Both the position numbers and the translations under genes were made by a program. From the NCBI GenBank assembly GCA_026874595.1, contig CM049317.1:78073415-78137414 (forward strand): a DNA stretch of 64,000 nucleotides. Reading direction: 5' to 3'. This stretch comes from Sipunculus nudus (lineage: Eukaryota; Annelida; Sipuncula; Golfingiida; Sipunculidae). The notes under the pieces were generated by a model. It was not told the DNA's origin and made no database searches. It saw nothing but the letters and a program-made list of their open reading frames with translations. The first letter of the stretch is position 1. Each line of letters opens with the position of its first letter. Shown piece by piece: positions 2,356-25,685 of this stretch.

Positions 2356-2427
2356 GGCGACCTTTGTCATTCAACAAAATACCACATACATTTCCAGGTT
2401 CAGACAGTTCTTTCATTTGTCTTCGGC

Positions 2428-2552
2428 TTAGGTTGTCGCCTTGCGGTAAATGAAATATCCTGTAGCGGGAGTTATCGCCACTGCAAGGAATATTAGGGCT
2501 GCCATGCCATAAAACCAAGCTCTCTGTTGACCTAAAAGGCCAAATCGGTCTG
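2428..2552 (-). pseudogene. Transmembrane/terminal exon of the left IgSF pseudogene (or small membrane ORF)
   Basis: The minus-strand frame ends in a hydrophobic helix, WFYGMAALIFLAVAITPATG, followed by YFIYRKATT and TAA at 2428-2430. This is a membrane helix with a short basic tail. Two acceptors give phase 1 and so fit the stalk exon donor at 4489: TATTACAG before 2552 and GCCTTTTAG before 2531. An unspliced reading also exists, a 90-codon ORF from ATG at 2700 (MTNEPVEII...). I favour the exon reading because phase, order and topology fit the gene to its right. No AATAAA is seen between the stop and the 73-bp array. The exon does not resemble the intact gene's transmembrane exon in sequence. 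Confidence 0.5.
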
Positions 2553-4488
2553 CTGTAATAATATTATTTGTAATTACGACTAGCAAGGGGCTTAAAATAC
2601 TATTCGTTACAATGTTAACGCAATGGTTGCAATAACGACTCAAATAGGGACCTCGTCCTAAGTTATTGCTTAAGATAATTTCAACAGGTTCGTTAGTCAT
2701 ATTGTGACCACAAATTCAAAAGATGGAATATAAGCATTTTACCAGCCTTTATATATATTTCAATAACACGTTGAAATATACATAAAACCAGATGTTAAGT
2801 ACATGTGGCTGAATAACCGAAGTAAAAGACCGTATACCTAAGCAGAGACAGACAAAAATCCTACTGATTTGTCCTCAACAATCATTAAGTTGCGGTCTCA
2901 TTACATTAACTCTAGCTAATTCTACTTAATCACTGCTTGCACCAAAAAGGTCGTTGGTTAAGAGCGAGGGGGAGGGTGGTGGTGGTGGTGGTGGTTGGGG
3001 GTCTGATCCCAAAAAAACCGTCATGCATAGATTTGTCTAAAAAAGGTCGTGGGTTAGGGGGAGGGGAGAGGGCCTGGATCCGCGCCTGGCGGTGCGTTCT
3101 GGATATTAGCCAAGTTGACCTTTTCATTCTCATTTCTTGTGTATGACCTAGCGCCATATCGACCCTCTGACATTACGACCAAATTACTGACTGTCAGAGT
3201 GCCTTTACATCTAGGTCTGAGGTACGCTTTATAAGGCCCCATGAGGATGCAACGCTTGATGGCCTACAGATACACTCTCAATTGACATAAACCAGACCAA
3301 TCGTTAGCAATTTAAGTGTACTTTTTAACAAAACTAAACATTGGTGAGAAAAGTTCGGTTTTTACTCAGCATATTGTTAAATCCTCCGCATATTTGTTGA
3401 ATTCTGACCGCATGAGTACAGGCAGGGCTGACACGGGTTACTGGACCGAGCCAACCTGTAAGCGATACAGGAAATGACTCGATACCATAGAGAAGAAGTT
3501 TCAGTTTGGGTTGTGGCTTCTCATGAATTTCCTTGTATCAATGCATCATTCGTAGAATATTATTAAGATTACGGACTGGTTACCACAATATGAATGTTTG
3601 AAAAGTTTCATATGTTAAACATGTTTGAAGACCACTGCGATGCATTCCTCGAGAATGATTGTAACACAACTCAAGTAGGTTTACCAGCCCAATTATCACT
3701 GAATCAGTTTGTTACGGCTAATGTATGACCTAAACGCTCAGGAAAATATGGCGGCCCCCATGGATTCATTGTGGACTTGACGAGATAACGTAAATATGGG
3801 AGACAGTTAAGTTGTGAAAAAACACCACGATACGGATGTTAGTCTAAAAGACAACTGTATGATTTTGGTCCCATCTTTGTGCTTTTGTGAAGCTATTGTG
3901 AAGGTAAATACGGTGTTCATTATGCAAACAGTGGTAAAGTGGAATAAGTAAGATGAAATGTAATGAGACTACCGCGAGGTAAAGACAGATCATCAATTAG
4001 TGTCCCACCCCGAAAGTCTCTTACAAGCACTTATTCTTAAGGTTTCGTTTAGCAATGCTTTTATATTATTTCGTAAGTTATTATAATTTGACTAATTCAA
4101 ATCCCGTGGCACCGTAAATAGAAAATAGTAAAAGATTTAAAAAAAAAACCAAAAAACGAATAACATTTATGAAAAATAGGAGAGAGTGGCTGCATGGGCT
4201 GCAAATGAAATTCTTTAAAAAAGTGCACGTCCTGGTTTAACTTACTTGATTCAGCATGACCCTTCAAGGTTTCCTTCCGGCTTCCTCTCTGCTTCTGATT
4301 TTCGACGGTATGAACCTCTTTAGGTGATAGGTCGGTTTAGTGATAAGAAAACATCATTGTTCAAATAAAGTATTAACTAGCCTGAACGATTCGATATAAT
4401 AAACACAAGGAAAGATTGTTTACTGATATGCTGGTTCGGCCGCGTCGACTTTTTAGCCTGTTAAAATCTACCTTTTTCTTTTTCTTAC
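2553..4488. other. Putative intron of the left pseudogene; no gene seen
   Basis: Apart from the GGT-rich tract at 2966-3072 this is AT-rich DNA without long open frames or recognisable elements. The overlapping ORFs at 2930-3242 on both strands come from the low-complexity GGT/GGGGA tract. An A-rich stretch lies near 4138-4160. Confidence 0.5.
2966..3072 (+). repeat. GGT microsatellite and duplicated G-rich tracts
   Basis: (GGT)n at about 2975-2995 is flanked by runs of G (2967-2972, 2996-3001). A second G-rich tract (GGGTTAGGGGGAGGGGAGAG) lies at about 3053-3072. Both follow a related lead-in (AAAAAGGTCGTTGGTTA and AAAAAAGGTCGTGGGTTA) about 98 bp apart, so the tract appears duplicated. Several G-runs of three or more on the plus strand could form G-quadruplexes. 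Confidence 0.75.
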
Positions 4489-4596
4489 CTTGGCTGGTCT
4501 TCGTTTGCCATGGCAGAGTACACGCCGTTTTCTTATGAGTTGTTTTTTCCGTGGTATGTATGTCCATGTTATCAATACTGGCGGGAGGTTTCGGCA
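4489..4596 (-). pseudogene. Stalk exon of the left IgSF pseudogene
   Basis: A 108-bp exon (36 codons), phase 1 at both ends, lies between the acceptor GTGCTCCCAG and the donor CAAG|GTAAGAAA. It follows directly after the Ig exon and reads PKPPASIDNMD, then a Thr/Lys-rich stretch ending KTSQ. This is the composition expected of an extracellular stalk. The paralogue has a 105-bp stalk exon in the same position with the same phases but little sequence identity. The TTG-initiated ORF at 4373-4615 is this exon plus read-through into the intron. Confidence 0.6.
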
Positions 4597-4714
4597 CTGG
4601 GAGCACGAACTCCAATATTGAATTTATATAGAAAATAAGTGATATATCATTGTGTTGTGGTTAGGATATCTTTTAGAATATTTACATCTTGTTTTCCAGT
4701 TTGAACACACTTAC

Positions 4715-5031
4715 CTGCGACTGTAAACTCTACAAGCTGTGATATCAGTTGCTGTTCTCCTGTCACTTCACATTCGTAAAAACCTGCATCTTCTTTCTGG
4801 GTGTCATGTGTGAACAGAGTGGAGACTCCCGGAGACATCTGCTGTGAGAATGTAACACCTCTTGATCAGCGGCTTGCAGGAACCCGTGCTGTAAATCTGT
4901 TTGCGGCTTCCGTTCCTCAGTTTTTCCCATATTACGACCTGTACTTTGACGGTCGGCTCCGGATACTTGTAGGTTAGAGCTCCTATTTCTCCGACACTGA
5001 GGACTACTGTAACAAACCATTTCCTCTCTAC
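4715..5031 (-). pseudogene. Frameshifted Ig-domain exon of the left pseudogene
   Basis: The exon is bounded by a CCTAG acceptor (exon from 5031) and a CAG|GTAAGTG donor (exon end 4715), both phase 1. It opens with GREEMVCYSSPQ, matching EMTCYSSPQ in the intact Ig2 exon. Where the paralogue has CAGTACGTGGGAGAGG this copy has CAGTGTCGGAGAAATAGG, two bases shorter. The frame then reads ALTYKYP where the paralogue has ALTCMYP, so the conserved disulfide Cys is lost. A further frame change near 4850-4870 is needed to reach the end, which reads KEDAGFYECEV and QLVEFTVAG. The separate ORFs visible at 4647-4838 and 4763-5041 are pieces of this one exon. Confidence 0.85.
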
Positions 5032-5525
5032 CTAGGTACAAATGAAAACGCCTTTAATGTTACTAGCTTGGTTTTTTAACAAATGCAGAATATCTAGTCA
5101 GGCAATATTTACAGAGATTGTAATACATTATCAGGACTGATATGCTGTACCAGGTATCAGACAATAAATGTCTTACATAATCCTTTGCTTTAAAACTATC
5201 AGACCCGAATGTGGGAAAGTTATTGACTCCTTAACGTCCATCAGGACATTTAATTAAATTCTATTTTCCACATAATTATAAAAAAGGAAAAGATATTTAA
5301 TACCGGCCTGCTGTGATAAGCGAATGTTTTCCACTTCCCGGTACACAGTATCAACTAATCAGTGTCTGTTCTATGAAGGGTTAAAGTTTTATGGTTCTAA
5401 TTGCCCTACCTTTGTACCACCCGTAATTTCTATACTGTATACATTATAGCGATGACTCATGTAAGAAAACAGTATTACTTGATCAGTTGGAGAAGCGTTT
5501 CTATATATTTAGAATCTCTGCCATA
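5032..5525. other. No gene seen
   Basis: AT-rich DNA upstream (minus sense) of the broken Ig exon. I looked for a signal-peptide exon or a first Ig exon with the FYEC motif and found neither. Confidence 0.4.
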
Positions 5526-5622
5526 CAGGTACTCACCGAGAACACTGTACTGTACACTCAGGTACTCACTAAGAACACTGTACTGTACATGCATGTACTC
5601 AGAGAACACTGTTCTGTACATT
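5526..5622. repeat. Short tandem repeat, 3 x 33 bp
   Basis: Units beginning CAGGTACTCACCGAGAACAC start at 5526, 5559 and 5592, with the third unit degenerate. Because 33 is divisible by three, it produces the repeated peptide pattern YS..TLYCT inside the ORF at 5401-5679, which is not otherwise gene-like. Confidence 0.85.
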
Positions 5623-5686
5623 CCTAAACATCGTTTTGTTTTTTATATGTCAATTCCCATTCATAGAACCCTGAAATGAAGCAGAT

Positions 5687-6085
5687 ATGTTAACTCCTTC
5701 TATGCTTTGGACAGTAGCAGGAGACATACCTTCCTCGTTGGGGGTATTTTCTTATACCGTGCAATTACTTTTAAATTATGGAGTGTTAGAAAGACTTTTT
5801 GTGGCAAAAATGTTCACAAATGCTATACGTCATGTGACAGGTTCGTGTGATAAGACATTAATAGAACGAGAACAACTTTGGGATTTCATAAACGATAAAG
5901 TCTCAGTAGAGTTCAGTGTTTGTATGCACATGTTTCAAGAAGATCAGTACATAGCTGTTCATTTTGGAGCACCAGTATTTTGTTTAAAATATCAAGAACA
6001 AGCTATGTTTTTGTACAGATCAGTATTTTTCTTCAAATGTGTAAAACCACTATGGCCGTCGGAAGTATATGCTAACATTATCTAA
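5687..6085 (+). CDS. Unrecognised 132-codon ORF, doubtful
   Basis: This is the longest plus-strand frame in the non-repetitive part of the window, starting MLTPSMLWTVAGDIP and ending WPSEVYANII. Its composition is protein-like (Trp, Cys, mixed charged and hydrophobic residues), and it has no obvious membrane helix, signal peptide or repeat. An in-frame stop lies about 18 nt upstream, and a possible acceptor (GAAGCAG) directly precedes the start, so it could be an exon. It lies just upstream of a likely LINE 3' tail (6247-6262), so it may be the C-terminal remnant of a retroelement protein. I recognise no domain. Confidence 0.25.
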   Translation: MLTPSMLWTVAGDIPSSLGVFSYTVQLLLNYGVLERLFVAKMFTNAIRHVTGSCDKTLIEREQLWDFINDKVSVEFSVCMHMFQEDQYIAVHFGAPVFCLKYQEQAMFLYRSVFFFKCVKPLWPSEVYANII

Positions 6086-6089
6086 AAGA

Positions 6090-6262
6090 TTCAGAATATC
6101 AGGTATAACTTTATTAAGAAAGTTAACGTCCTACTCAAACGTGAAATGTATAATTCATACTATTTGTGATTATTTGCATAATTTGTATTATTGTATTGCT
6201 CAATTAATTGTGATTGTACTCTTCGTTACACGGAAGAAATTAAGAAAATCAATCAATCAATC
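6090..6262 (+). mobile_element. Probable 3' tail of a non-LTR retrotransposon ending in (AATC)4
   Basis: AT-rich sequence ends in TTCGTTACACGGAAGAAATT followed by four AATC units at 6247-6262. Simple-repeat tails of this kind are typical of CR1/RTE-like LINEs in invertebrates. No reverse-transcriptase motif was found upstream, so at most a heavily truncated copy is present. The small ORF at 6069-6266 is this tail read in frame. Confidence 0.35.
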
Positions 6263-6975
6263 TTAATTACACATTCACTGAAGGAGATATCTAATTAACG
6301 TTGTGTTTAATTGACAAGTCGCCCATCCAATCTTTCTCTTTTGCAGAAACCAGATTCATCTGCCTTGCCAGCAAGAATGAAAATGAAAAAAAAAGACATC
6401 ATTTTTCGTTTGAAAAGGGCTCTTGATTATTATATGGTTAGTTATTCAATAGCTATTCCTAAATTTTAGAAAGTGTTAAGAATGCACATGAAATTCTGAA
6501 TCACAACCAAAAAAATCCAAGATTGTTTTGTCTGTATTTACCACCTGATTATAAGAACGAAACAACTATTTTTTTAAAGAATAAGATAAGATTACTTATT
6601 CAATATTATTGACATATCGTTGTAATTGAATACACACACGCGCGCATATACACTAAATTGATGATATTCTGAATGTGGTATGAAATGTTTGTATTTGGTT
6701 TTCAAAACATATGGGCATTCTGGAATCAGCGGGGTCTTATTGTTTGGTCACGCTTAATAACACATTATCTGCAGCTGTTCTCTAATTAACCTGGCGTTAT
6801 ATTGACTTATTGTGACTAAGTTAAGACTAGACTTGATTAAGTTACCCATCCTTTCTTTTTCTGTGCATTAAAAGTGCAAATATATAATTGTTTTGGATTG
6901 TTTTGTTTGTATTTACCACTTGAGTATAAAGGTGATGATGAATAATTTGTAAGACCGGTAATAAATATAATAAGG
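6263..6975. repeat. Diverged direct duplication
   Basis: The segment 6263-6560 is echoed at about 6757-6930. TCTAATTAACG at 6289 corresponds to TCTAATTAACC at 6780. CCCATCCAATCTTTCTCTTT corresponds to CCCATCCTTTCTTTTTCTG. GATTGTTTTGTCTGTATTTA at 6521 corresponds to GATTGTTTTGTTTGTATTTA at 6896. The second copy is about 120 bp shorter. A third echo (TTAATTAGCGTTGTG) lies near 7251. No coding content was seen. Confidence 0.5.
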
Positions 6976-8425
6976 TAAATCAAGTCTATGTAGATTTATC
7001 GTTGTAAAAAGCACACGCATACACAGTGTATTATGTGTGTAATATTTAATGTATTAACTGTACGGTTCATGTGATTTAACTTGTTAATGATATTTCGGGA
7101 TTCTTGAAAAACAATGATATTCTGGGAATCTTGCAAAATCCGTCATTTACATTCCAAATATAACCCCTCTCTCTGAGAGGGGGTGGGGGCTCTTTCTCGA
7201 AAGGTGCAATTGGAAGCCTCAAAGAACAGGGACGTATGCTAATTAGTTCTTAATTAGCGTTGTGAAAATAATAGGCACCCCCGCTATCACACGGTTTGCA
7301 AACTCTCCAAACACAACGCATATATTACCTGCAGAATGCACCACTACATACGTGTATGTGTGTATATTAATATATATTTTATTTATTTATCTCCTCTCTT
7401 ATTTTCCAGATATATATGCAGACAGATCGTTTTGTCCTGTATACATAGAAACAATACATTTGCCGAGAGCCTTGTGTTCGTTCCACTGAGGCGTATCAGC
7501 TGTACCTCTTAGGGTTCCCCAAAGAACCACCGGACAGGCTTCCCCAAAGAACCCTTACTAGAGGGATCTACCTCGATCCTCTAAGGGTTCCCCGTTGGAT
7601 CCACTGTGAGGATCACTTAAGTGTTTTACAAGCTGCCTTTCTTTCTTAGGGTGTACGTATAAGGATACCCTGCGAAACCAGACAAAAAGACAGCCAGACC
7701 AGAGCGCAAGCCTTTAAAAAGACCACACAATGTAGAATCCTGTGTAAGCAGTTTAATATCAGTGTTTTTGTGACTTATACATTTTAGTTCGTCAGTCAAT
7801 GTATCTTACTACGCGGGAATATAAATCAGTACAATGTTGATCTGGTCGTAATAAAAATGCCATTATCAATTCATCATTTGCAGGATATAATTATAAGCAT
7901 TTTCTTAGGGCGGGTCCAATAAAGTGGTCTGTCTAATTCAGTAGGTGATCCATGATTGTGACGGGAAGGGCTGTTCCGGGTATGCCCATACTGGGGCGGG
8001 TCTTGGACCCCCCCCCCCCGGAAATATTAGTCATCTAGAAGGCAGTAGTTTTTTCCGCATTAAAATGAAAAAGTATACCCAGGGGTGCCCACTTTTTTCT
8101 CAAAAAATATAGTTTAAACATATTGATAAATAACACATTAAATTAAAAGAAAAAGAAAATTGCATGATTGAGGCTTTTTTAACCTCCATGCTTTATTCAA
8201 ACAATCCAAAATATTTAACTACTTAATGTCTGCGATGCCTAATCATTATTCCGGAAGATAAAATTGATTTGATAATTGTACATTTAGTAATGGAAAGAAT
8301 AATCAAGTTACTGTCCAATGTGGTGGACCACTTAAACAGCCAGAGTAACAATTGGTCAGGTCCTATTCCCCTTAAAATAAAGTGAATGGGAAACCACAGA
8401 ACTGTTTCTATCTACACCATTCAAA
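6976..8425. other. No gene seen; hairpins and poly-C
   Basis: AT-rich DNA with a small inverted repeat at 7165-7182 (CCCCTCTC...GAGAGGGG), a longer hairpin at 7549-7590, a short direct repeat (TTCCCCAAAGAACC, near 7515 and 7541) and C-runs at 8008-8019 and 8426-8439. The 75-codon ORF at 7262-7489 is AT-rich and resembles nothing recognised. Confidence 0.5.
7549..7590. repeat. Near-perfect 42-nt hairpin
   Basis: The right arm GATCCTCTAAGGGTTC (7575-7590) is the reverse complement of the left arm GAACCCTTA..AGAGG.ATC (7549-7568), apart from a few extra left-arm bases, around a TACCTC loop. TTAGGGTTCCCC also occurs at about 7510, and the motif TTCCCCAAAGAACC occurs twice just before it. This may be the core of a foldback element or a structured RNA. 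Nothing shows transcription. Confidence 0.6.
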
Positions 8426-8607
8426 CCCCCCCCCCCCCCATCACAGTAAGCAAAGAGGTGCATCTCACCGAAACATCTCACTGTAAAATCTCACAGAAAC
8501 ATCTCACTGTAACATCTCACGTAACATCTCACTGTAACATCTCACTCACACATCTCACTGTAACATTTCACTGTAATATCTCACTGTAACATCTTGCTCA
8601 TACATCT
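8426..8607. repeat. Poly-C followed by degenerate 13-16-bp tandem repeat
   Basis: A run of 14 C (8426-8439) precedes imperfect repeats of ACATCTCACTGTA with spacer changes up to about 8607. The ORF at 8386-8589 is an artefact of this repeat. Confidence 0.8.
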
Positions 8608-9049
8608 GCTATTGTAAGAACAATACAGGAAACAAGAAAGACTTGTCAAATTAAGTATCTTCGACAGTTTTGTAAGGAAATATATTGGTTTTAATAAAGT
8701 ACATTTTAATTGTACATACTCTTTTGATTGTACTTCCTTTATTGTGCTTTCCTTTCCTATTAAAATATTTTGGGAGCTAGTGGGGTAGGAAGCCTCAACC
8801 CCCTCGTCCTTGGACCTATCTCTGTCTTTTATGACATGAGCGTTTAATTGAAATTTGGATTAGGCAGAAATCAGTTATCTGTGCTATTCATTGATACATG
8901 TAAAACTTAAATGTTACATTATCCGAGATACGAAGCTCGACCTACCTAAAAACATAAGTGTCACACCAGTCAGACGGAATCCGAGAGCGAATGACTGGGT
9001 TTGTCTACAACATGTTTGAATAATAATGGTTTAGGTGGGTTTTTTCCCT
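8608..9049. other. No gene seen
   Basis: AT-rich sequence without open frames, repeats or splice-bounded exons that I could support. Confidence 0.4.
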
Positions 9050-11305
9050 CTGAGTACTCCTTAAAACAATCCAAATGACGTCACCGGGTTATCAGACCAC
9101 ATAGTGCTAGTTGATCAGTCGTAAGCCTGTGTTCCTTGTGACCTCAAAATGACGTACTACACTAGTTTCTTACAATTACTCACTGTGGCGCTCCAGAACG
9201 CCCCGTGGCGAGTCCGTGGAAGAGGCTGTGACCACATAAGATGATGAAATCCTTTCATAATACTTTATGAGTAAGATTCGGTGAGTAAAGGGGAATATAG
9301 GTACGTTCCCGGGCGGTCCCAGGAGCACCACATGTTTAAACCCCACTCAGCTGCAAAATGTTAACTCCAAAACAAACGACTATGTAACTTCTTACAATCA
9401 TTCACCAATATATTTTATATAAGACCCTGAGTTCTTTCAGGCCCTGCCTCTTAAAAGTCAATACTTCTTTATTTTTAAACTAGATCTTTTATATCAGATC
9501 CTTTAATTATTGATTGCACCAGAAAGCTGGTGCATTATTGTCATAAATGTTTATGAGATAACATTATTTATCACAGTGAAAGATTTAAGTTCTTGTGGTT
9601 CTTTGCTATCTAGCGCTGTGTATATGCAATTAATACAAAATAAACATTTATTACAAGACACGATATGAATACAGACAATAAAGCTGGCGAACTGTATATT
9701 AATCAAACCTCGTGTATACTCCTTTAAGATAAATACATACTTGAAGACGACATTGCGTGTACAACCCGTGGATTTATGCTGTTTCTACCTTTGAGATCGA
9801 AGTCCATCATCCAGGCCGTTTACAGATATGAAGTTGGAGATAGGCAGAAAGGTATTTCATTACATAGAGTTCATCGGTTCTATAAACAAGGGATATTTTT
9901 TTGTTGGGTGATTATTTAAATCTGTTTTAGCCTCTCACTCTTCTGTAGAATTCGAAGTCTTGTGAATCTCATCTGATGATGATGTCGGTAGTTTAATAAA
10001 TATGAGCCTCTTATCTGCTTGTGTTATAAGAGGAAGTGTATACGATTAACACAGGTCTATTATAGACAAAATCTGGTAACAATTATACTATATTTGAGGT
10101 TGAGTGACAATGCGTAGATTTTAAATAAGATCATATGGGTGGTATGCCGCTCTCTTTGTAATACCAGTTGAAAATATTTTTGCTGTTTAGGAGGTTGATG
10201 TTGTGCTTTTAATCACTTTGATTAATTTTCATATCATTATACCTGAGAGTCGGACACCTTCATAAGAACTAGAAATCTCTTCCAAATTCCATCAGATCTG
10301 GCTCCTAAAAAAAAATCTTGCCTGGAGAAAACAAACTGTATTTAGGCTTCAAAATGAAAGCGTGCTCTCGTTACATCATGAAGTTTTCCCTACTAAATAA
10401 AAACTTACGTGTGACATGTTGACAACTAGAAAATGGTAGGGCTTAGTTATGAATTTCAGTGGATTTGACAATTTGTTCTTGGATATCCATGTGTTTTTAT
10501 GTTTGTATTATGTTAAGTAACATTTACGTTGTGCCTTTTCCGTTTCCCCATAAGTCGTTTATGCCCTACGAAAAGATGACATGAGCAAGGCTTGAAATAA
10601 TGACATGAAAATTATGTCAGTCAAAAATTTGTTAGTACATTAGCTAGACATTAATTCAGCCACCGGTAAATAATCACCTTTTGATCGCCCCTCCTTCATA
10701 AACAGTTGGATATAGACATCAAATTGAAAGAAAAATCATCTGTCTGTTTTATAGAGTTGAATACAGCCTAAAATTAATGTTATATAATAATCAGAATTAA
10801 AGAAAAGCTAAGTCAGTGTTTCCTCTTAAATTGTCGCTCGTGAAATATTAGGTATGGATCCTTGCCACATGTGTAATATCTAAGGTAAATTTTGTCTCAC
10901 AAGGATTAAACGGATCTATTCACAGGTATTTGATTTTCTGTAAAACAAACACTATTTGGTGTTTTCCCAAGGGAACTATGTTTTTAGAAAAACCAAATAT
11001 TAGTTAGCCCAAGATCCCATCTTTAGTACGACCCTGTAGTTCTCACGCGTTTCATTACTTATGTTGATAAAAACTTTTTATCCAGATCGATTATTTTCAG
11101 AACACGAAACAGTGCCTACTTCAAATTAGGTAAAGGGCGTAAAACTCATTTAGGTATATAATGTGTCCTGTGTCAAATATTTATATTTCATACTCATGAC
11201 AACGAAACTAAGGCTGTGCCTACCTGTCAGGTATATTTCCTTGGTATCACAACATACGTGTAATCCCCTAATCAAGTGAATATGTATACGCAAGCCTGAC
11301 CTTAC

Positions 11306-11475
11306 CGTGGGCATAGGTAGTGGTTTTACCTTTGAGCCAGTGTCCTTCGAGAGAGAGCTTTGCTGACAGCATTGAGCTTTGACGGTTCCCTTAAATAAAT
11401 GTACTTTACTGTACATAGATTGCTGAAATGACGGGAATATACTGATTCGGTTTGGAGTTTCCACAGGATCATGTT
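11306..11475 (-). promoter_or_regulatory. Conserved segment with paired splice-donor sites, candidate 5' exon for the left gene
   Basis: Read on the minus strand the segment begins ATGATCCTGTGGAAACTCC and ends with CAAAG|GTAAAACCACTAC and then CCCACG|GTAAGG. Both donor-like sites and the start are preserved in the block B copy (22447-22625), while the middle differs and the reading frames do not match. That pattern suggests a non-coding first exon or other regulatory segment placed upstream of each IgSF gene. The ORF at 11150-11464 (METPNRISIF...) is one frame through it and is not conserved as protein. Confidence 0.3.
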
Positions 11476-13675
11476 TCTTCTAGGAAAACGGTATTTTTAG
11501 AAGAAAGCTAATTATTGTTGTCTTTTTCTATGATTGTATTCAGTGGTCAATCCGATTAGTATCGTTCATTGGAGAAGATTGGCAATAATAGTTTTAATTT
11601 TCGCTTTTGGCGGTAAAATGTTCTTTTCATTCTCTGGATAACATGCTTTCTGTCTAATGCCCTAATACATTAGAGAGAAAATATGAATTAAATTAATTTT
11701 TTGTTATCTAAGATTATAAATTAACATCACTTGGAAGAAACAAACGTTATGTTACGTCAAGATTATGTCAAGGACATATAAGATTAAAAACTCTAAAATT
11801 GTAAATTGCCTCGATCCCTGAATTTTAAAACCTCGCCAAGAACTTTATATTCTAAATACAAAGTAAACTTCTTCCTAGACTCAGTTTAAATGCAGGTAAA
11901 TCAGTATATATAGCTAATGTGTAAACAGCTCAGACTATCTTCAAGTTACCATTAGCTGCTATGCGCATTATTTACAAGCAAGGTATAAATTCAGAACATA
12001 ATGACCTATAGGTCTTGTGCCTTATATTGCACTATGAAAAATGAATGTACAATCGACTGGGTCCACTGTACGTATCATCCATTCAATCTAATCTTAACTT
12101 GTTACAGATAAATAATATGTCATATATATATAATACACGACAGTCTTGTATTAATTCTAAAGGACACATACACTATGAATGATATCTGAACTACCAACCG
12201 GATCTTATGCTGAGCACGTTAATCTATAGGATAAGCGTACTGATAAATGAGACGTTCATTTAGATAAATATATATTTATTATACCATTTTACCACTGTTC
12301 AAATCGTTCAGGGCTAATACATGCTGGTCCATATATTTGACATTATGATATATCGAAGACTTGTTCATTAAACGTGTAAGTGTGATCTATCAAACGTACA
12401 TATGTGTAACAGTTATATAAACGACAGCACTGTGATACTCAAGTGCGATTTAGATACCAATTCTCGGAGTCACATTACTATCTATATATTTTTCTTGCAA
12501 AATAGAACCAGTTTCGACGAGCTCAGACCTTTGAAGACCTGAATCAAGGGTCACTGTAAAGCAAAAACCCCTACTCACTTGGTTTAAAAGACTCATGTGT
12601 GCATTTCTGTGCGCTGAGTCACAGTTTGAATATATATTTGCAAGTACTATATAAATGCAGCAGTGCCAGTATTTTGAATCATAAAAAAAAAACAATTGAA
12701 TTGTTCATATTCAGTGCAAGTGACTAGTGCTTAAATCTAGGCCCAAGCTGCAAATGTTATTATATTCATATTTGTGTCAATTAAACTTTTCATGGTTGCA
12801 GATTATACAAAACTTCACCCTATACGTCTGGCAACATGAAACACGGATACATTTAATAAGTAACGACCGAGCCTGAACCTTTCAGGCAGTAAAAAGGACT
12901 CATTAACTGTACAATTAAAGATAAGATAGACAAGTTTTCCGCTTGCAACTTTTTTAAGAGCGAAGTCTAGACAAACGTTTTCTCCAAAATTCTATTTTAT
13001 CTGATTGTACACTGCACATATATCAATACTCAACTGCTTGTATATCTGAACCAGGTTGCATTATTTATTAGCTCGACTGGTATACGAATATCAGCTTTAA
13101 CCGGTACAACAGAAATTGGTGCTGATTTGTTTTTGGATTATTCTTGTTTTACGTATACTTTTCGACGTTCTTGGGAGCTAGCATATCTATTCTTAATAGT
13201 AACGAACAAAAGGCAACAATTAACGGAAAGCAAGACACTAATATTTGCTTTGTATTTTGCACATGTTAATGTAGATGTACATTTTTAAACATCCCTCACT
13301 TAACACCTGGAACCTTAGAACTCAACCTGTACCCAAACATATTGAATTTATATTTTTTTATTCATTTATTGAAATTGAAGGGTTGCATGAGAAATAAAAC
13401 TAAAATAAAAAACTAAAAAATGCTCCCTTATATAAGTTGATACATTTTTACACATGTGTACGTAAAGAAATATTCTTTTTGAATCTCAAGGATACTTTTA
13501 CATACTTTCGTTCTGATAAAATGTGTGCCTTTCATATAATGAATTTCCTTTCGACTATTTATGAGTGTACATGTCACCATTCAATACAAACCACATAATG
13601 ATATAACAAAACGGTAAGAAACTAGGACATCTACATATTATAGGGTATCCCTGAGCGTGCCTGGTTCCCGGTTCC

Positions 13676-13681
13676 TTTATT
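13676..13681 (-). terminator. Poly(A) signal AATAAA of the IgSF gene
   Basis: AATAAA on the minus strand lies 19 nt past the TGA, giving a very short 3' UTR. The aligned position in block B reads AATATA (25551-25556), one base changed. Confidence 0.65.
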
Positions 13682-13699
13682 TAAGCCGACATATTAAGA

Positions 13700-13811
13700 T
13701 CACGTGTTTTTTCCATCGCTGGTGGCTGTACTTTCTAAAGGGACACTTTCTTGTGGTTCACGCCCCTCGTCGGGACCCGGCGATCTTGACCTTCCGTTTT
13801 TACAGCTATTC
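13700..13811 (-). CDS. Exon 6: cytoplasmic tail and stop
   Basis: The acceptor ACATTTATTCAG opens the exon at 13811 in phase 2, matching exon 5. It encodes a hydrophilic tail (NSCKNGRSRSPGPDEG... ending TATSDGKNT) and stops at TGA 13702-13700. It has no ITIM, ITAM or other Tyr motif; RSRSP could be a phosphorylation site. The same segment, with a premature stop and a frameshift, recurs at 25575-25685. Confidence 0.75.
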
Positions 13812-16800
13812 CTGAATAAATGTTTATCAGAAGAGTAAGTCCTAGTTTTGGACCAATTACTTTTTTTAATTATACAAGAACCATTCTATTCATCATTTTG
13901 AAATTAAATAAAAGCACATTGTTTTATATTAGTAAATACGACATGGATTCAGCATTTAACTTTATTTTTAAAAAATATGTCTCATATAAATAAATACAAT
14001 TGTCAAATGCAGTTAGGATTTGCTTGTATTATGCATGTACAAGATAGACAGCACTTGTAAGAGTAGTTTATAAGAAATAAAAGAATGATAATTTTCGTTG
14101 ATAAAAATTATCTGTGAACCATGGACAGTCATATGGACAACTCAGACAAATGGTATATCAGGTGCATATGAACGTACCCTCTCGGTGTCCTCAGTAATAC
14201 GAAATACACCACGAAACCTGCCGCTAAAACCAATACTATAACCGTTGATATAATAGCCACAGTCCTCACGTCGAGTAAAACTAAAGCACAGACAATAAGA
14301 TAAATAATGACATTGTGGTTTCCAATGGATAACATAAAATACACATCCGTTGTGGAATAAGCAACTATGCCTTTACTTAGCTAACAGAACTGCATGCTTC
14401 TCATCTCTTTCTTATGGTATGCACGAACATATTTTAAACATATAATTCAATTGAATCGAAACATGTTATCGCCTCGAACTTATAAGCCCCACTAATGAGC
14501 CAAGATTTAGTCTATAAATATATTCATTTTCCCATTTCTGAAGAACGGTGGCTGATTTAGGACACAGAAAAAAATATTCATCTCGAGATCTCGAGTGGTT
14601 AAGTCGATATCTCGAGATGTTAAGTCGAGATCGATCTCGAGATGTTAAGTCGAGATCTCGAGATAAAAATTTCAATGAAAAAATCCACGTGTGCGTTGAA
14701 CGGACCATTCGATGCTTAATTGACTTAAAGCAAAACAAAGTTAAAGGGACCGCTTCTATATCTGACGTCTGTCAAATAAACATAATTTATTGAACCTTTC
14801 ATAAAAATGAGTCAAGCCCACGGGGTAAAGGCGGTGGTTTTTGTTTGTATCCACGTGTTTATAACATGGGTCGGGGGGGGGGGCTGTGCAAACATGGCCA
14901 CCGATAGTAATAGAAAGACTTCCGGCAGAAACATCCCGCTTCAATTCAGAGAGTACAGAGTTCTGTAAATGACAAATATTACATTGCTTCACATGCTCTA
15001 ACGAACATCAACTAGGGATCTTTCTATAACTCGGTAACATGTTTTTATCTTTATGTGAACACTGGCTTAAGTACCTTGTGTACAAGTAGCCTGTAGATAA
15101 AAATGTTTATACGTCAAAGTGGCGTTATAATACCCTTTCCCAGCAAGAATTACCTTCACTTCTTTAATATATATATGCAGAGTTAGCCGGTATTACAAAA
15201 ATTATATAAATTAGACAGGTGAATAGTGACTTTAAGACCATAGCAGAGCATATTGCTGAAGGAAAATCATGATGACAGATGATCGCAATATTAAAACCGT
15301 TTATTTATGAATATAAATAATTTATGAAGATAGGTTGACTAAAGGTACTTAACATCTCGAGATTTCGACTTAACATCTCGAGATCTCGTGATAATATTTT
15401 TTTTCTGCAGCAAATTTTGTTTGTGAAATATTTTGTCGAGATCTAGAGATAAATATTATTTTTCTGTGTCCTAAATCAGCCACCCTACTGACAGGACTAG
15501 TTTTCACAAGTAAATCAGCTATAAGATTAAAAGACATATCTCTTTTGCTCAATTTATGGAAAATAAAACCCTAAAATATAGCTCCTATGAACGACTTTCT
15601 AATTTGTGTGATGTCTCTTTTTAAAAGTGAAAAAACATCATGTGAAACAAGATCTTTCAATATATTTTTTAAAATATATCAGAAACGTATTATACAAAAA
15701 TTCGCATTTACTTATTGGCTTAACGTACCTGAGCTCTCCATGTTTGCTACAGATTTCTCTCGATTACTTATTGTTCTTGTTACTGCCGCAAGAGTTCCTT
15801 CAGTCTGTGAGTGAAAATGTTCTTTGCTGCTCCCTGTAAACAAACAGACTTAATTGAAATAATTAGAAGAATCTATCAAATGTCTCGTGTGTAGTCATAC
15901 TCATTTTATTTTAAAACTTACCTATCGTTTTGGATGGTATATATTATTTATAGTAACAGTCTCGTTGCGTAACATTTAAGGTTTACCCCAAGAAAATAGA
16001 ACAGAAAAATACGAGTATATTATAAAAGAATTTATGCGTTTGGTGACATTCGTCATATGTTAGAGCTTGTTTAATAAATATCATTTGTGTGTCATTAATT
16101 GGGGTAGAAATCGTTAAAAGTTTGGCTTAATTCAGGGAACATTAAAATGTCTCAAATAGCAGTTAAGATGGTGAATGCGCATCACATGTTACAAAATATT
16201 ATAATTAATTATCTTGCCTGTTTTTGATTTCATATTCCAACTATGAGTGGTCGAAAAGCTGTTCGTTTTAGCATCCAGATTACGTGTAATATTCGGTAAA
16301 GGAGTTCCTGAAGCTTCTTGTCTTCCCTTGTCTTTATTAATTAAAACACGATTGCATGTTGTTAAACATATTCACTTGTTTTAAAACTATTTTAATCATG
16401 CTGTCGAGATATCAACAATTAACAATACCGCATGGTATGGAAATGGCTTGGGGTGAATACAGGAACGACAAAAATTAAAGAACCGTGCAACATTTTTCAG
16501 ATAGTTTGAGCGTGACAAAGCATATTGTTAGAATCTGTCAAGCATCTGTATTTCGATAATTACATAGAATATAAAAATGATTTTTTAAATTTAAATATAT
16601 ACCACAACAACTTAAGACGGTCGTTCATGGATACAATATTGAGATGGACAGTTGTAGTTACTTACCTATGACTATATATTGTACCAGTTGTTTAATTTGT
16701 ATTTGTTGCCCAATTATTTCACACTCATAAAAACCTGCATCTGTCCATACTGTATTATGTATGAACAGAGTGAACAAACCAGTTGATAACTGGTGGGAGA

Positions 16801-17751
16801 ATTTATCAATTGAAAAACCATTATCTGGCGGCCGGCATGATCCTGTACTGTTACAGGTGTAGATTTGTCTTCGACGTCCATTTTTAAGTTTTTCCCACAC
16901 TACCAGCTCCAGCGTGACGGTAGATGGAGGGTACATGCAGGTTAGAGCTCCTACCTCTCCCACGTACTGAGGACTACTGTAGCAAGTCATTTCTACTGTC
17001 CCTACAATATGTCGATGATACTCAGAAATATAATGCCTATTGGCAGATGAGTTTATTTTCTACTGCATAATTATGATGAGCACTTGCATAAATGGCAAAT
17101 GAACAAACCTGACTTGCTTATCATTATGATATATCCGTTTGTATTGATGTATAAATTCTCTCACCTAGAACGTTGTATTCAACATTGCCGACCATGTTTT
17201 CAGATTTCATTGAAACGTCACATTCGTAGAACCCGGAATCCTTGTATGAAGAGTTGTGTATGAAGAGTGTCACAGTATCGGCACCAATAGCATGTGAATA
17301 TTTTATTGACGATACACTCCGGCTTTCATCAGAGCTAAATGTGTAAATATGGTCCGTTTGTCTAAAGGGGTACTTCTTCCAGTGTACAATCAGTGTGAAA
17401 CCTTTCCACGATGGGATCTGACATGTCAGGTTACCAACAGCTTCCAATACCCCACGCCTGCTGGTGCATTGTAACCTCCCAGTGACTCGAGAGAGAGAGA
17501 GAGAGAGAGAGACCAGTAAATGTCGACCAAGTATAGCGTGGTTGTTAGGCTTATACATGAGACAAAAACAGTGTGATCCGTATTTATTAAAAATATCCGG
17601 GGTATTTCCTTAAGAATAATTAGTAAATGCATATGCTTACTTATAAATACTAGCAATATAGAAATGTATATACCGTACCTGTATTTGAGGAATGTGTAAA
17701 CTGGAAAATTGTTAGAACGACAAAGCCAATGGGTGCTTTCTGGAAAAACAT
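13700..17751 (-). CDS. Two-Ig-domain type I membrane receptor, six exons, 349 aa
   Basis: I assembled the gene by eye from exons 17751-17679, 17485-17165, 17001-16666, 15833-15729, 14280-14178 and 13811-13700. Their lengths (73, 321, 336, 105, 103, 112) sum to 1050 nt, exactly 350 codons with the TGA. Every junction has GT/AG borders and matching phase (1,1,1,1,2). The protein has a signal peptide (about 1-22), Ig domain 1 (25-131), Ig domain 2 (132-243), a Ser/Thr-rich stalk (244-278), a membrane helix (about 285-308) and a 41-residue tail with no tyrosine motif. Both Ig domains keep the B-strand Cys, the C-strand Trp and the F-strand motif SGFYEC or AGFYEC. AATAAA lies 19 nt past the stop. 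Symmetrical phase-1 Ig exons are typical of animal IgSF receptors. The ligand is unknown; an immune or cell-recognition role is inference. Closely related copies lie on both sides. Confidence 0.87.
14178..14280 (-). CDS. Exon 5: transmembrane helix
   Basis: The acceptor is GTCTGTGCTTTAG and the donor GAGG|GTACGT. Phase 1 in, phase 2 out. It reads LLDVR, then the helix TVAIISTVIVLVLAAGFVVY, then FVLLRTPR, consistent with a type I stop-transfer segment with basic residues on the inner side. The 71-codon ORF at 14129-14344 is this exon with intron on both sides. Confidence 0.85.
14547..15484. mobile_element. MITE-like inverted-repeat element with CTCGAGAT subterminal repeats
   Basis: The left end reads GGTGGCTGATTTAGGACACA from 14547, and the reverse complement of the same sequence ends at 15484, giving terminal inverted repeats of about 28 bp. 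Inside both ends are palindrome-rich repeats of ATCTCGAGATGTTAAGTCGA, three or more on the left (14580-14665) and two in inverted orientation on the right (15353-15388). The ~670-bp centre holds a G11 run (14873-14883) and no transposase motif. No clear target-site duplication was seen. It sits in the intron between the stalk and transmembrane exons. ORFs at 14466-14992 and 15370-15552 are by-products. Confidence 0.7.
15729..15833 (-). CDS. Exon 4: Ser/Thr-rich stalk
   Basis: The acceptor TTTGTTTACAG and donor CTCAG|GTACGT bound 35 codons, phase 1 at both ends. The exon starts GSSKEHFHSQTEG and ends NREKSVANMESS. Hydrophilic and Cys-free, it fits a stalk between Ig2 and the membrane. It has no long ORF of its own because of its length; phase agreement with both neighbours is the main support. 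Confidence 0.75.
15834..16665. other. Intron between Ig2 and stalk exons; no further exon seen
   Basis: AT-rich, with no Ig motif or splice-bounded open stretch on the minus strand, and no recognisable mobile element. Confidence 0.5.
16666..17001 (-). CDS. Exon 3: second Ig domain
   Basis: The acceptor is ATTGTAG|GG and the donor ATAG|GTAAGT. The exon has 112 codons, phase 1 at both ends. Conserved residues are Cys in GALTCMYP, Trp in LVVWEKL and TDAGFYECEI. Additional cysteines (MTCYSS; CNSTGSC) suggest extra disulfides, and NST is a potential glycosylation site. This exon is the close homologue of the broken exon at 4715-5031. Confidence 0.87.
17165..17485 (-). CDS. Exon 2: first Ig domain (V-like)
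   Basis: The acceptor lies in a long CT tract (CTCTCTCTCGAG) and the donor is CTAG|GTGAGA. The exon has 107 codons with phase 1 at both ends. Key residues are Cys in GNLTCQIP (B strand), Trp in IVHWKK (C strand) and KDSGFYECDV (F strand). An extra Cys occurs early (RLQCTS). Potential N-glycosylation sites are NLT and NSS. The polypyrimidine tract is a (GA)n microsatellite on the plus strand (about 17488-17512), so length change there could affect splicing. Confidence 0.87.
17679..17751 (-). CDS. Exon 1 (coding): signal peptide
   Basis: The ATG at 17751 has A at -3 (ACACCATG). It opens MFFQKAPIG followed by the hydrophobic run FVVLTIFQF and small/polar residues THSSNT, a classic signal peptide with likely cleavage near THS-S. 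The exon ends ACAG|GTACGG in phase 1. A good acceptor (TTTGTTTCAG) lies 26 nt upstream of the ATG, so the exon may begin at 17777 with a short 5' UTR joined to an upstream non-coding exon. Confidence 0.8.
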
Positions 17752-19164: not shown

Positions 19165-19447
19165 AAATCACCTCCTAACAAAATCAAAATGGGTTCAATA
19201 GGTTATCAAACCAGCAAGTGTAATTTGATCAGTCCTAGACCTATGTGTCTCTTTTGACCTCTGAATGAAAACATAATATATGAAATCGTGCTATACTACT
19301 TGTGAATACGATTCTGCGCAGAGGAGGAGAGTTAAGTACCGGAAACCATAGATACGCTCCCACGCCGTCTTAAAACAGCACATGGTTAAACTCAACCCAA
19401 CTGCCACATGTTAATCCATAACAAATGACACACGACTCCTTCAACCA

Positions 19448-20548: not shown

Positions 20549-20969
20549 TTTAGAAGATTATGAGTGACCAGAATGAACATAGCACCAGTATTTAGAAGAT
20601 TATGAGTGACCAGAATGAACATAGCACCAGTATGTAGAAGATTATGAGTGACCAGAATGAACATAGCACCAGTATTTAGAAGATTATGAGTGACCAGAAT
20701 GAACAAAGCACCAGTATTTAGAAGATTATGAGTGACCAGAATGAACATAGCACCAGTATTTAGAAGATTATGAGTGACCAGAATGAACATAGCACCAGTA
20801 TGTAGAAGATTATGAGTGACCAGAATGAACATAGCACCAGTATTTAGAAGATTATGAGTGACCAGAATGAACATAGCACCAGTATTTAGAAGATTATGAG
20901 TGACCAGAATGAACAAAGCACCAGTATTTAGAAGATTATGAGTGACCAGAATGAACAAAGCACCAGTAT
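20549..20969. repeat. 42-bp minisatellite, 10 copies
   Basis: Units TTTAGAAGATTATGAGTGAC... (42 bp) repeat from 20549, with variants TTTAG/TGTAG and AACAT/AACAA. As 42 is divisible by three, the minus strand has a 184-codon frame with a 14-residue repeat (LLNTGAMFILVTHN). The hydrophobic repeat is almost certainly not a protein: it has no signal of selection or gene structure around it. Confidence 0.95.
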
Positions 20970-21834
20970 GGGTCTCAGCAGCTGTGTGAATGTGGTTGGC
21001 CAACACTCTTCTCAAGAGTAACTTAAGGTTCATATACCATGAAGAAATCTGATATTTTTTTCTTAATTTTTTTTATTTAATTCAGTAAAAGCATTCACAT
21101 GTAAACAACAGTCCTGCTTATTTTCCGGGTAACGTTTAAAAACATGTATAAGGTAGGCTTCATAGTAAATTCGAAGTGGATTAAATATGGACAGACTCCG
21201 AAACCGAGAAAGATTTGACAATATGTTCCCGGATTATCCAGGTGTTCAAGTTTATATTAAGTTAACTTTTATGTTGTGCCTTTTCCGTTACCCATAGGTC
21301 GTTTTGACCCAACAAGAAAGACACGAGAATGACCTGAAACATTGCCAAGTTCATAATCCTTGTGTCAGTGATAAGTTTGTTCGTTTACTAGCTAGACTTT
21401 AATGGGGCTATAGACAACTTGCCACTTGAAGTCCGACCCTCCTTCATGAAGCGTCCGATAAAGATTTCAGGTTTATAGGCAAATCAACTGTCTGTCAAAC
21501 AGAAATAAATATAACCCATAGCAAACGTTATATAACGATCTATGATATTAGGTAAACATCCAAGCCATGTATGAATTATCTAAGGCAAATGTTGTCTCAC
21601 AAGGTTTAAACAGGTCTATTAACAGAAACTTGTTTTTCTGTAAAAAATACTTTTGCTTCATATTTGGTGTTTTAGGAATAAAAATTTGTTTATAGAAATT
21701 CCAAATATTAGTTAACCTAAGATCCAATCTTCAGTACCCCCCGTAGAGCTCACGCGTTACGTTACTCATTTTGATAAGAACTGAACTCCGGATTGAGCAT
21801 TTGCAAAACAGTGCATTTTATAAAACAGGATTTT

Positions 21835-22330
21835 AAAAATCAGGATCAGTGATGAGCCGTATATAATATGTCCTGTATTCATACGCAATATATGTAAAAA
21901 TCAGGATCAGTGATGAGCCGTATATAATATGTCCTGTATTCATACGCAATATATGTAAAAATCAGGATCAGTGATGAGCCGTATATAATATGTCCTGTAT
22001 TCATACGCAATATACGTAAAAATCAGGATCAGTGATGAGCCGTATATAATATGTCCTGTATTCATACGCAATATACGTAAAAATCAGGATCAGTGATGAG
22101 CCGTATATAATATGTCCTGTATTCATACGCAATATACGTAAAAATCAGGATCAGTGATGAGCCGTATATAATATGTCCTGTATTCATACGCAATATACGT
22201 AAAAATCAGGATCAGTGATGAGCCGTATATAATATGTCCTGTATTCATATGCAATATACGTAAAAATCAGGATCAGTGATGAGCCGTATATAATATGTCC
22301 TGTATTCATACGCAATATACGTAAAAATCA
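21835..22330. repeat. 61-bp minisatellite, 8 copies
   Basis: The motif CAGGATCAGTGATGAGCCG starts at 21841, 21902, 21963, 22024, 22085, 22146, 22207 and 22268. Copies are almost identical (only TATATG/TATACG and ATACG/ATATG changes), implying recent expansion. The piece GTATATAATATGTCCTGT has a single-copy counterpart in block A near 11154 (GTATATAATGTGTCCTGT). Confidence 0.97.
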
Positions 22331-22446
22331 TGCTCATGACTACCAAACAAAACCTGTACCTACCTATAAAGTATATGTCCTTAGTATCACGACATACGTG
22401 TAAATCCCCTAAACAAGTGACACCGTATACACAAGCCGGTCCTTAC

Positions 22447-22625
22447 CGTGGGTGTAAGTAGTGGTTTTACCTTTGTTCTAATGCTAACAATGCTACCAAG
22501 CGAGATCTTTGCTAACACATAGATACGTCCTTTAAATAGATTTCCTAAAACTGCACAGTGCACAGATTGATAACGTACAAGGAATTTTCTGATTCGCCCT
22601 GGAGTTTCCACAGGATCATGATTCT
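22447..22625 (-). promoter_or_regulatory. Conserved segment with paired splice-donor sites, candidate 5' exon of the intact IgSF gene
   Basis: Block B counterpart of 11306-11475. On the minus strand it begins ATGATCCTGTGGAAACTCC and ends ACAAAG|GTAAAACCACTAC and CCCACG|GTAAGG. It lies 4.7 kb upstream of the signal-peptide exon, which has an acceptor 26 nt before its ATG. It may be a non-coding first exon. The ORF at 22387-22611 (METPGRIRKF...) is not conserved as protein with its block A counterpart. Confidence 0.3.
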
Positions 22626-22859
22626 CCTGTCATTTTTTAGTGTATTTGATTATAAGAAAGATAATCATTTTGTGTTTTCATATGATATTAAATGGAGTAA
22701 GTGAACAATGATAGTTTTAGTATAAAGTAAAAATATTATACTCATACACGCTGTCAGTATTAAAAAAAATATTAAATTCTCTGGATAACATAAAACATGT
22801 TTTTTTGTTCAGTGACCCTTCTCAATCACTTTCATGTATATTAAATGTATTCAAATGAG

Positions 22860-24907
22860 CCCTTATCATAACAAAGATCGATGATGGTACTTGGTACCTT
22901 GTCACGACATAGATCGACGATGGTACTTGTTGCTTTTTCATGAACTTGATCGACGATGGTACTTGGTACCTTTTCATGACATAGATCGATGATGGTACTT
23001 GGTACCTTATCATGACATTGATCGACGATGGCACTTGGTACCTTATCATGACATAGATCGACGATGGTACTTGGTACCTTTTCATGACACAGATCGACGA
23101 TGGTACTTGGTACCTTATCATGACATTGATCGACGATGGCACTTGGTACCTTATCATGACATAGATCGACGATGGTACTTGGTACCTTATCATGACATAG
23201 ATCGACGATGGTACTTGGTACCTTATCATGACATAGATCGACGATGGTACTTGGTACCTTATCATGACATAGATCGACGATGGTACTTGGTACCTTTTCA
23301 TGACATAGATCGACGATGGTACTTGGTACCTTATCATGACATAGATCGACGATGGTACTTGGTACCTTTTCATGACATAGATCGCTGATGGTACTTGGTA
23401 CCTTATCATGACATAGATCGACGATGGCACTTGGTACCTTATCATGACATAGATCGACGATGGCACTTGGTACCTTATCATGACATAGATCGACGATGGT
23501 ACTTGGTTCCTTATCATGACATAGATCGACGATGGTACTTGGTACTTTATAAGGACATTGATCAAAGATGGTACTTGGTACGTTATCGTGGAATAGATCG
23601 ATGATTCTTCTTGGTACCTTATCATGGCATTGATCGAAGATGGTACTTGGTACCTTATCGTGGCATAGATCGATAATGGTACTTGGTACTTTATCATGAC
23701 ATAGATCGACGATAGTACTCGGCATCTTATCAAGACACAGATGGTACTTGGTACCTTATCATTTCATATATCGATACTGGTACTTGGTACACTATAGTGA
23801 CATAGATCGGCGATGGTACTTGGCACCTTGTGATGACATAGATCGATGATGGTACTTGGCACCTTGTGATGACATAGATCGATGATGGTACTTGGTAACT
23901 TGTCAAAACATATATCGAAGATGGTTCTTGGTACCTTATCGTGGCATAGATCGATGATTGTACTTGGTACCATGTCATGATATATATCGATGATGTTACT
24001 TGGTACCTTTTCATGACATAGACCGACGATGGTACTTGGTACCTTGTCATGACATTGATCGACGATGTTTCTTAGTACCTTATCGTGACATAGATCGATG
24101 ATGGTACTTGGTACCTTGTCAAGACATAGATCGACGATGTAACATGATGCCTTGTCATGGCATAGATCGACGATAGTACTTGGTACCTTATCATGACATA
24201 GATCGACAATGGAACTCGTTACGTTATCATGACACAGATCGATGTAGGTATTTCCTACCTTATCATGAAATAGATCGATGATGGCACTTGGTACTTTATC
24301 ATGACATAAATCGATGATGGTACTTGGTACCTGATCATGGCATTTATCTATGCTGGTAATTTGTACCTTTTCATGACAAAGATCGACGATGGTACTTGGT
24401 TCCTTATCGTGGCTAAGATCGATGATGGTACTTGGTTCCTTATCATGACATAGATCGTCAATGGTACTCGTTACGTTATCATGACACAAATCGATGAAGG
24501 TATTTGCTACCTTATCATGAAATAGATCGATGATGGCACTTGGTACTTTATCATGACATAAATCGATGATAGTACTTAGTACCTTATCGTGGCATAGATC
24601 GATGATGGTACTTGCATGATACCTTAACATGACATAGATTGACGATAATACTCGGTACCTTATCATGACAAGATCGATAATGCTATTTGGTACCTTATCA
24701 CGACATAGATCGGTGATGGTACTTTGGACCTTATCATGACATAGATCGATGATGGCACTTGCTACCTTATCATGACATAGAGCGATGATGGTACTTGGTA
24801 CCTTATCATTACATAGATCGCTGATGGTACTTGGTACCTTATCATGACGTCATAGATCGACGATTGTTCTTGGTACCTTATCATGACATAGAACGATGAT
24901 GGTATTG
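22860..24907. repeat. 36-bp minisatellite, about 57 copies
   Basis: The unit ATAGATCGACGATGGTACTT... recurs every 36 bp. The left half (to about 23600) is more homogeneous, and the right half (23700-24900) is more diverged with GATGATGG variants. Each unit has the palindrome GGTACC and near-palindromic GATCGACGAT. Because 36 is divisible by three, most frames on both strands are open, giving 12-residue repeats such as MIRYQVPSSIYV, CHDKVPSTIVDL and VPYHDIDRRWYL. These ORFs of up to 303 codons overlap each other and are not supported as genes. Confidence 0.96.
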
Positions 24908-25574
24908 GTCCACAAAATACGTGTTATTGATGACAAATAAATAGCCTTAAATTATTAAATACTCCCTATCTAGATTTAATTTTTCATTTGAAGATGTAGC
25001 TAGTTAAAATATGTTTAAAAAATACGTTTCCCCTATTGAAAGAATATTTTGACTAAAATGAGCTTGTCTCTCCTTCCTGTGCGCCTCCTATCACTAAATA
25101 TGAGATGGAAATATAAACTATTTTAAAGTCACAGAATTGACTAATAATTTATATTCAGGCTGATTTGGCCTTGAAAATAAAAGTCAAGGTTCCGGTTTCA
25201 AAACACGTTCTAGATTTTGGTAGAGACATTCACGACTCGAATTTCATGAAAACAAATTTAGTGGTTCAAAAGTTATGTGTTCACAAAAATAATCTGTTTC
25301 GGCCTATAAGACCTTGATGATGACGGTCAAGCTCATCGGTTTTCCGATTACGGACGACGCAAGCGACAGACCATACTCTGTATGTCTCCTCTATTGGAGG
25401 GGAAACAAATATGTATGATAATGCATTTAAAGTTTTTTATTATGCATTTTATTATCATTAATAGGGTTTATTAATATATAGCAATACATATAAAACACAA
25501 GCAACTCTACATATATAGGGTATCCTTTAGCTTGCCTGGTGCCCGGTTCCTATATTTAGGCCGACATAATAAGA

Positions 25575-25685
25575 TCACGTGGTTTTTCCATCGCTGGTAG
25601 CTTTACTTTCTAAAGGGACACTTTCTTGTGGTTCAGGTCCCTTGTTTGAACCCAGCAATATAGACCCTCTGTTTTTTAGCTAATC
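25575..25685 (-). pseudogene. Decayed terminal exon of a third IgSF gene copy
   Basis: Homologous to exon 6 of the intact gene (13700-13811). The same acceptor (ACATTTATTCAG) is followed by G ATT AGC TAA, an immediate in-frame stop (25678-25676). The exon is 1 nt shorter before the conserved GAACCACAAGAAAGTGTCCC, so the frame is also shifted. The poly(A) hexamer has become AATATA (25551-25556). No transmembrane, stalk or Ig exons were found to its right before the satellite. Confidence 0.7.

Follow-up and report, generated by a model that had tools for sequence, protein, structure and literature searches.

The closest described systems to the gene considered here are receptors and lectins of the immunoglobulin superfamily (IgSF). 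The molluscan FREPs contain one or two V-type IgSF domains together with a fibrinogen domain (PMC7588048). The oyster protein CgIgIT2 carries five immunoglobulin (Ig) domains and a tyrosine signalling motif (PMC11999971), and Alr of Hydractinia is a V-set-containing IgSF allorecognition family (PMC11999971). In vertebrates, CD226/DNAM-1 and the nectin-type receptors combine two tandem Ig domains with a stalk and one transmembrane (TM) helix. The locus described here lies in a window of 64,000 nucleotides from Sipunculus nudus (contig CM049317.1; C12:78073415-78137414 in the genome labelled G000, which comprises 1.43 Gb and 153 contigs, 17 of which appear to be of chromosome size). Its central element, referred to as gene G, occupies 17751-13700 on the minus strand and is predicted to encode a type I membrane protein with two V-set domains; a pseudogene of a related receptor stands beside it.

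The architecture of CD226 and the nectin-type receptors recurs in gene G, and CD226 is the best solved-structure sequence match over both of its domains (6e-5), but identity is low, no tail motif is seen to be common to them, and the likeness is one of PDB sequence similarity. CgIgIT2 is likewise a membrane IgSF receptor, of molluscan origin, whereas the G protein has a pair of V domains, and its tail is short or uncertain. Tandem V-type IgSF domains are shared with the FREP/VIgL proteins, from which gene G differs in having a TM helix and no lectin domain. The likeness to Alr, compared by description only, is that of an invertebrate family of V-set IgSF genes, and the cnidarian 41-gene complex is unlike the approximately 14 loci found here. 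A literature search found no described match to this architecture, although one may still exist. Gene G represents a familiar type of receptor, its family is one that we have not found described, and its record of movement and decay is unusually clear.

Structure and selection of gene G

Exons 1-5 of gene G are open, with GT-AG borders and phase-1 junctions, and a sixth exon is putative. The exons are arranged as follows, with a slash marking an exon border.

17679..17751, minus strand: exon 1, start codon and signal peptide MFFQKAPIGFVVLTIFQFTHSSNT; donor CAG/GTACGG
17165..17485, minus strand: exon 2, first V-set domain (Ig1), phase 1-1; an (AG)n microsatellite abuts the acceptor
16666..16995, minus strand: exon 3, second V-set domain (Ig2), phase 1-1; additional CNSTGSC hairpin
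15729..15833, minus strand: exon 4, stalk, phase 1-1
14178..14280, minus strand: exon 5, TM helix; splice at GAGAGG/GTACGT or read-through to the stop at 14129-14131
13700..13811, minus strand: putative exon 6, unproven, the tyrosine-free tail of the earlier model, 36 aa; AATAAA (minus) at 13676-13681

The V-set family PF07686 matches both Ig exons in two stretches (5e-17, 62.5 bits against a Pfam cut-off of 26), and the canonical B- and F-strand cysteines and the core Trp are present in both domains. AlphaFold was run on each Ig exon separately with an alignment of two sequences, and both models show a V-type fold at modest confidence (predicted local distance difference test, pLDDT, 71.5 and 74.8), and their PDB matches include antibody V domains for both and CD8 also for the second. 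The (AG)n microsatellite at 17487-17514 serves as the polypyrimidine tract of the Ig1 acceptor, and its length could influence splicing.

Gene G was compared with its two close paralogues, A (C12:45.76 Mb) and B (C10:73.76 Mb). The nonsynonymous divergence (dN) is 0.24-0.26 for Ig2 and about 0.50 for Ig1, and the synonymous divergence (dS) exceeds 1.4 or is saturated; for the G-A pair, Ig2 has a dN of 0.24 with saturated dS and Ig1 a dN of 0.50 with a dS of 1.49. Because dN is low at such dS, gene G must be old and constrained. It is under purifying selection, its dN/dS having been far less than 1 ever since it split from these paralogues long ago, and its outer domain, Ig1, evolves about twice as fast as Ig2 at the protein level. 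The evidence has mostly shown that G is a genuine gene under selection, encoding a type I membrane protein in which a signal peptide is followed by a pair of V-set domains, a short stalk and a single helix.

The sequence-only reading had proposed an intact six-exon gene at 13700-17751, encoding 349 aa and ending in a tyrosine-free tail. Five coding exons with their splice sites and phases are retained from that proposal, while exon 6 is uncertain and the model that includes it has 347 aa. The spliced tail does lack Tyr, but it depends on the unproven exon 6, and the relatives of gene G end in a TM exon with a short tail. The read-through tail of exon 5, LLRTPRGYVHMHLIYHLSELSI, contains tyrosines (YVHM, IYHL), neither of them in an immunoreceptor tyrosine-based inhibitory motif.

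There is an even chance that the TM exon is the terminal exon of gene G, exon 6 being non-coding and the relic of it found farther right merely a duplicated 3' flank. TM helix and tail share one terminal exon in A, B, the window pseudogene and the readable single-V relatives; A, B and several single-V relatives stop within that exon; the 6-7 kb that follow A or B yielded no match to exon 6; and an AATAAA lies about 163 nt past the read-through stop. Against this, the donor and acceptor of exon 6 are good, the GTACG donors are the same as those of exons 1 and 4, and an AATAAA follows soon after the exon 6 stop. Splice signals and AATAAA motifs are compatible with either or both tails, and on these signals the spliced and read-through forms appear about equally probable.

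Derivation from a FREP/VIgL immune lectin, with a membrane anchor replacing the lectin domain, is possible but improbable. The V-type composition of FREPs (PMC7588048) would fit, and the FREP3.2 IgSF1 peptide YITLILHNPTQFDAR (PMC7588048) resembles VTLFIHNSSYKDSG of this family; the resemblance is by eye, and a Pfam scan detected neither a fibrinogen nor a lectin domain in the gene models for G, A and B or among the window's scanned open reading frames (ORFs).

Duplication, copying and decay around gene G

The features that surround gene G are listed below; those given as unstranded have no assigned orientation.

2428..5675, minus strand: pseudogene of the B lineage, by alignment to B
5583-5675, minus strand: pseudogene Ig1 exon remnant, by alignment to B
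about 4713-5031, minus strand: pseudogene Ig2 exon, with frameshifts and a lost Cys
about 4488-4597, minus strand: pseudogene first stalk exon
about 4244-4318, minus strand: pseudogene second stalk exon
about 2431-2553, minus strand: pseudogene TM and tail exon
2316..11570, minus strand: segmental duplication with C10:73754884-73763865, 76-85% in blastn, interrupted at about 5680-7610 and running on to the left of the window
5680..7500, unstranded: dispersed repeats belonging to two or more element families; across the genome, 78 matching pieces were reported
10462..11644, unstranded: block W1, on the upstream side of the pseudogene; matched elsewhere only by 21212-22791 (W2) and C10:73754884-73755916
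21212..22791, unstranded: block W2, older local duplicate of W1; order and orientation match the relic duplication
25472..25919, minus strand: local duplicate of the gene G 3' end, matching 13596-14050 and including the relic exon 25575-25685

The pseudogene belongs to the B lineage and is not derived from gene G, because its introns and flanks align with B over about 9 kb. Window 5556-2316 matches the B locus on C10 at 85% in blastn (90% of 3,167 gap-free columns, introns included), window 11570-7612 matches C10 at 76-80%, and more homology extends to the left of the window. By these alignments, the pseudogene is the C12 end of a segmental duplication of about 10 kb, the intact partner of which is B, whose six exons assemble cleanly with phase-1 junctions and encode 351 aa (signal peptide, two V domains, two stalk segments, then the TM helix with a short tail). 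In the pseudogene, exon 1 and most of Ig1 are missing, and dispersed repeats occupy their place. At 5522-5621, the 3' end of its Ig1 exon and the donor have expanded to about three tandem 33-bp copies. A 136-aa ORF at 5675-6082 was rejected as a gene, as no Pfam family exceeds the cut-off and its DNA is widely repeated.

To the right of gene G, 25472-25919 is 81% identical to 13596-14050 over 456 bp, and only these two copies were found in the genome, which led to the rejection of the exon 6 region as a dispersed repeat. The homology ends in intron 5, short of the TM exon, so that, among the coding exons, the doubtful exon 6 alone was found in the copy; sensitive blastn and tblastx found no further gene G exons right of the relic. 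As far as homology can be traced, the relic is the 3' fragment of a local duplication, its detectable part beginning in intron 5.

It had been proposed from the letters alone that gene, pseudogene and relic share exon order and represent three stages of decay of one gene. The two flanking pieces themselves are confirmed: the multi-exon pseudogene stands left of gene G and shares its strand, its Ig2 exon having lost 2, 9 and 8 nt and changed from TGC to TAC at the B-strand Cys, and the terminal exon at 25575-25685 is a true DNA homologue of the gene G 3' end. The common plan is not confirmed, and the common origin is contradicted. Like A and B, the pseudogene has two stalk exons and a TM exon with tail and stop, whereas gene G has one stalk exon and, in the sequence-only model, a separate tail exon that none of the three matches; the relic consists of a tail exon only and has nothing in common with the pseudogene; and the one piece belongs to the B lineage while the other is a fragment of a local duplication.

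The direction of copying can be approached through blocks W1 and W2. A transposon was rejected as their source, only the two window copies and the C10 copy having matched. The C10 copy sits upstream of B, and the distances are 0.15 for W1-C10, 0.34 for W1-W2 and 0.37 for W2-C10, with W1-C10 closest in 1000 of 1000 bootstraps. The W1/W2 pair and the pair formed by the gene G 3' end and the relic look like products of one local duplication. As W1 and C10 are closest and W2 falls outside them, the duplication within C12 would predate that between C12 and C10; and since W2 adjoins the relic of G, the block would have been on C12 first, with C10 as the recipient, barring gene conversion. C12 is probably the older site, and the C10 gene an escaped copy. 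The opposite order, in which the C10 gene is the original and the segment was inserted next to G on C12 by chance, is unlikely. The C10 copy is indeed the intact one, and A, on C12, is nearer B than G in the domain tree, but W2, beside the relic on C12, branches outside the W1-C10 pair, which suggests that the block was on C12 before the C10 split.

In the history preferred here, most of which is shown, gene G and a B-like gene were at first arranged head to tail on C12. Copies of the 3' end of G and of the B-like upstream flank were then placed to the right (21.2-25.9 kb) by a local duplication, and later a segment of about 10 kb with the B-like gene was copied from C12 to C10. The C10 copy stayed intact; on C12, dispersed repeats replaced the 5' end of the original, which also gained frameshifts. 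The locus offers a sequence-level example of a receptor gene leaving a decaying site, from local duplication and copying to another chromosome to the loss of the original through repeats and frameshifts and the probable expansion of sequence beside the dead gene into a satellite.

In terms of function, the V-V ectodomain may use its faster-evolving outer domain to bind a protein ligand carried by a microbe or by another cell. The membrane helices of G, A and B contain no charged residue, and nothing in them suggests pairing with adaptors that carry immunoreceptor tyrosine-based activation motifs; the tails of the relatives have roughly 5-30 residues. Because of the short tails and uncharged helices, the G protein is probably an adhesion molecule, a ligand or a partner-dependent co-receptor and not a receptor with its own signalling motif. 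That the gene is expressed in immune cells is a conjecture, drawn from the general role of IgSF receptors in molluscs (PMC11999971).

Taken as a whole, the selected gene G, its history of duplication, escape and decay, and recognition by the V-V ectodomain form the best explanation, which we hold to be somewhat more likely than not. Several points weigh against it. Gene G is known from genomic sequence, and its tail can be read in two ways. The inferred order could also be imitated by gene conversion between W1 and C10, and the 81% identity between the exon 6 region and the relic, compared with 66-68% between W1 and W2, is unexpected for a single duplication without rate differences or constraint. 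The functional part, ligand and cell type included, is inferred.

The receptor family and its cysteine plan

Whole-genome protein searches, run exon by exon, found A and B as the two close paralogues with both V exons, A being 68% identical to gene G in Ig2 and 49% in Ig1, and B 62% and 47%. A follows the plan of B with phase-1 junctions, its TM exon being in frame when spliced at a TTTTCAG acceptor that was identified by hand. Approximately 14 related loci with one or two V domains lie on C12 (11 and 46 Mb), C10, C5 and C2, including the following distant relatives with a single V exon (positions in Mb).

C12: 45.733, 45.747, 45.647 (disrupted, TGA), 11.144, 11.153, 11.203
C5: 60.74, 60.80, 73.43
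C2: 12.147, 12.152 (disrupted, TAA)

These relatives were read within about 1.5 kb of the Ig exon, and a second V domain may lie farther off. The readable TM exons near them mostly stop a few residues past the helix (MAFLRKSNA, LYRKCKRFVN, FWRWRKLSR, CYIKRKKQRP). Weaker matches on C17, C9, C15 and others represent wider Ig families.

Across 15 aligned V domains, the A- and B-strand cysteines are invariant, while the F-strand Cys is present in G, A and B and replaced in most single-V relatives (YKFD, YLFE, YRFE and others). Outside this alignment, C12:11.203 has the F-strand Cys and lacks that of the A strand. A- and B-strand cysteines without a canonical F-strand Cys also occur in L016, L020, L014, L019, L021, L031 and L070 and in the more distant L023, L027 and L034, and the closer members of this V-set group have an added CxC..C hairpin. 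The positions of these cysteines suggest an A-B disulfide in V domains that lack the F-strand Cys, and they point to V-set domains with an altered cysteine plan, which is structurally testable. That the family represents lineage-specific, fast-turnover, short-tailed receptors, many with a rebuilt A-B disulfide, for variable recognition or self-recognition is a speculative suggestion to which we give little weight.

Birth-and-death evolution, which had been read from this window as one gene decaying in place, is supported at the genome scale, with the approximately 14 loci and at least two further disrupted members (C12:45.647 and C2:12.152) besides the window pseudogene and the relic. The expectation of a larger variable family past the right-hand satellite found no support, as the exon-wise searches detected no member right of the window on C12. 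A single local tandem array, with copies of G decaying in place and a large variable family beyond the satellite, is accordingly very unlikely. All three pieces share strand, a local duplication exists, and the B-like gene probably once lay in tandem with G; nevertheless, the pseudogene is much nearer the C10 gene than G, with alignable introns, and the strong form of this explanation is already contradicted. Least likely of all is that gene G has itself recently become a pseudogene or is not expressed, for which its reading from DNA alone, the inverted-repeat element in intron 4 (14547-15484; 14547-14650 against 15347-15484) and the single stalk exon found, compared with two in A and B, could be cited, since every exon is open, the splice sites are intact and dN/dS has stayed well below 1.

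On C17, dense clusters of other V-type Ig exons (14.99-15.18, 29.4-29.8 and 31.7-32.2 Mb) likely represent a separate expanded IgSF family.

Satellites and tandem arrays

The left edge of the window is formed by a satellite.

1..2355, unstranded: 73-bp satellite with a total length of about 2.8 kb; no other locus with it was found

This satellite probably grew from the 3' flank of the pseudogene, because it overlaps that flank and a related stretch follows the C10 gene (C10:73763683-73763865). Tandem arrays with units of 36 bp and 42 bp occupy 22861-24909 and 20547-20969; they contain long open frames (e.g., CHDKVPSTIVDL repeats) but are probably non-coding. On the right, a 58-bp satellite fills 27801-64000 and extends over at least 44 kb, being present at C12:78145001-78145600 and gone at 78160001, so that its end lies between C12:78145600 and 78160001.

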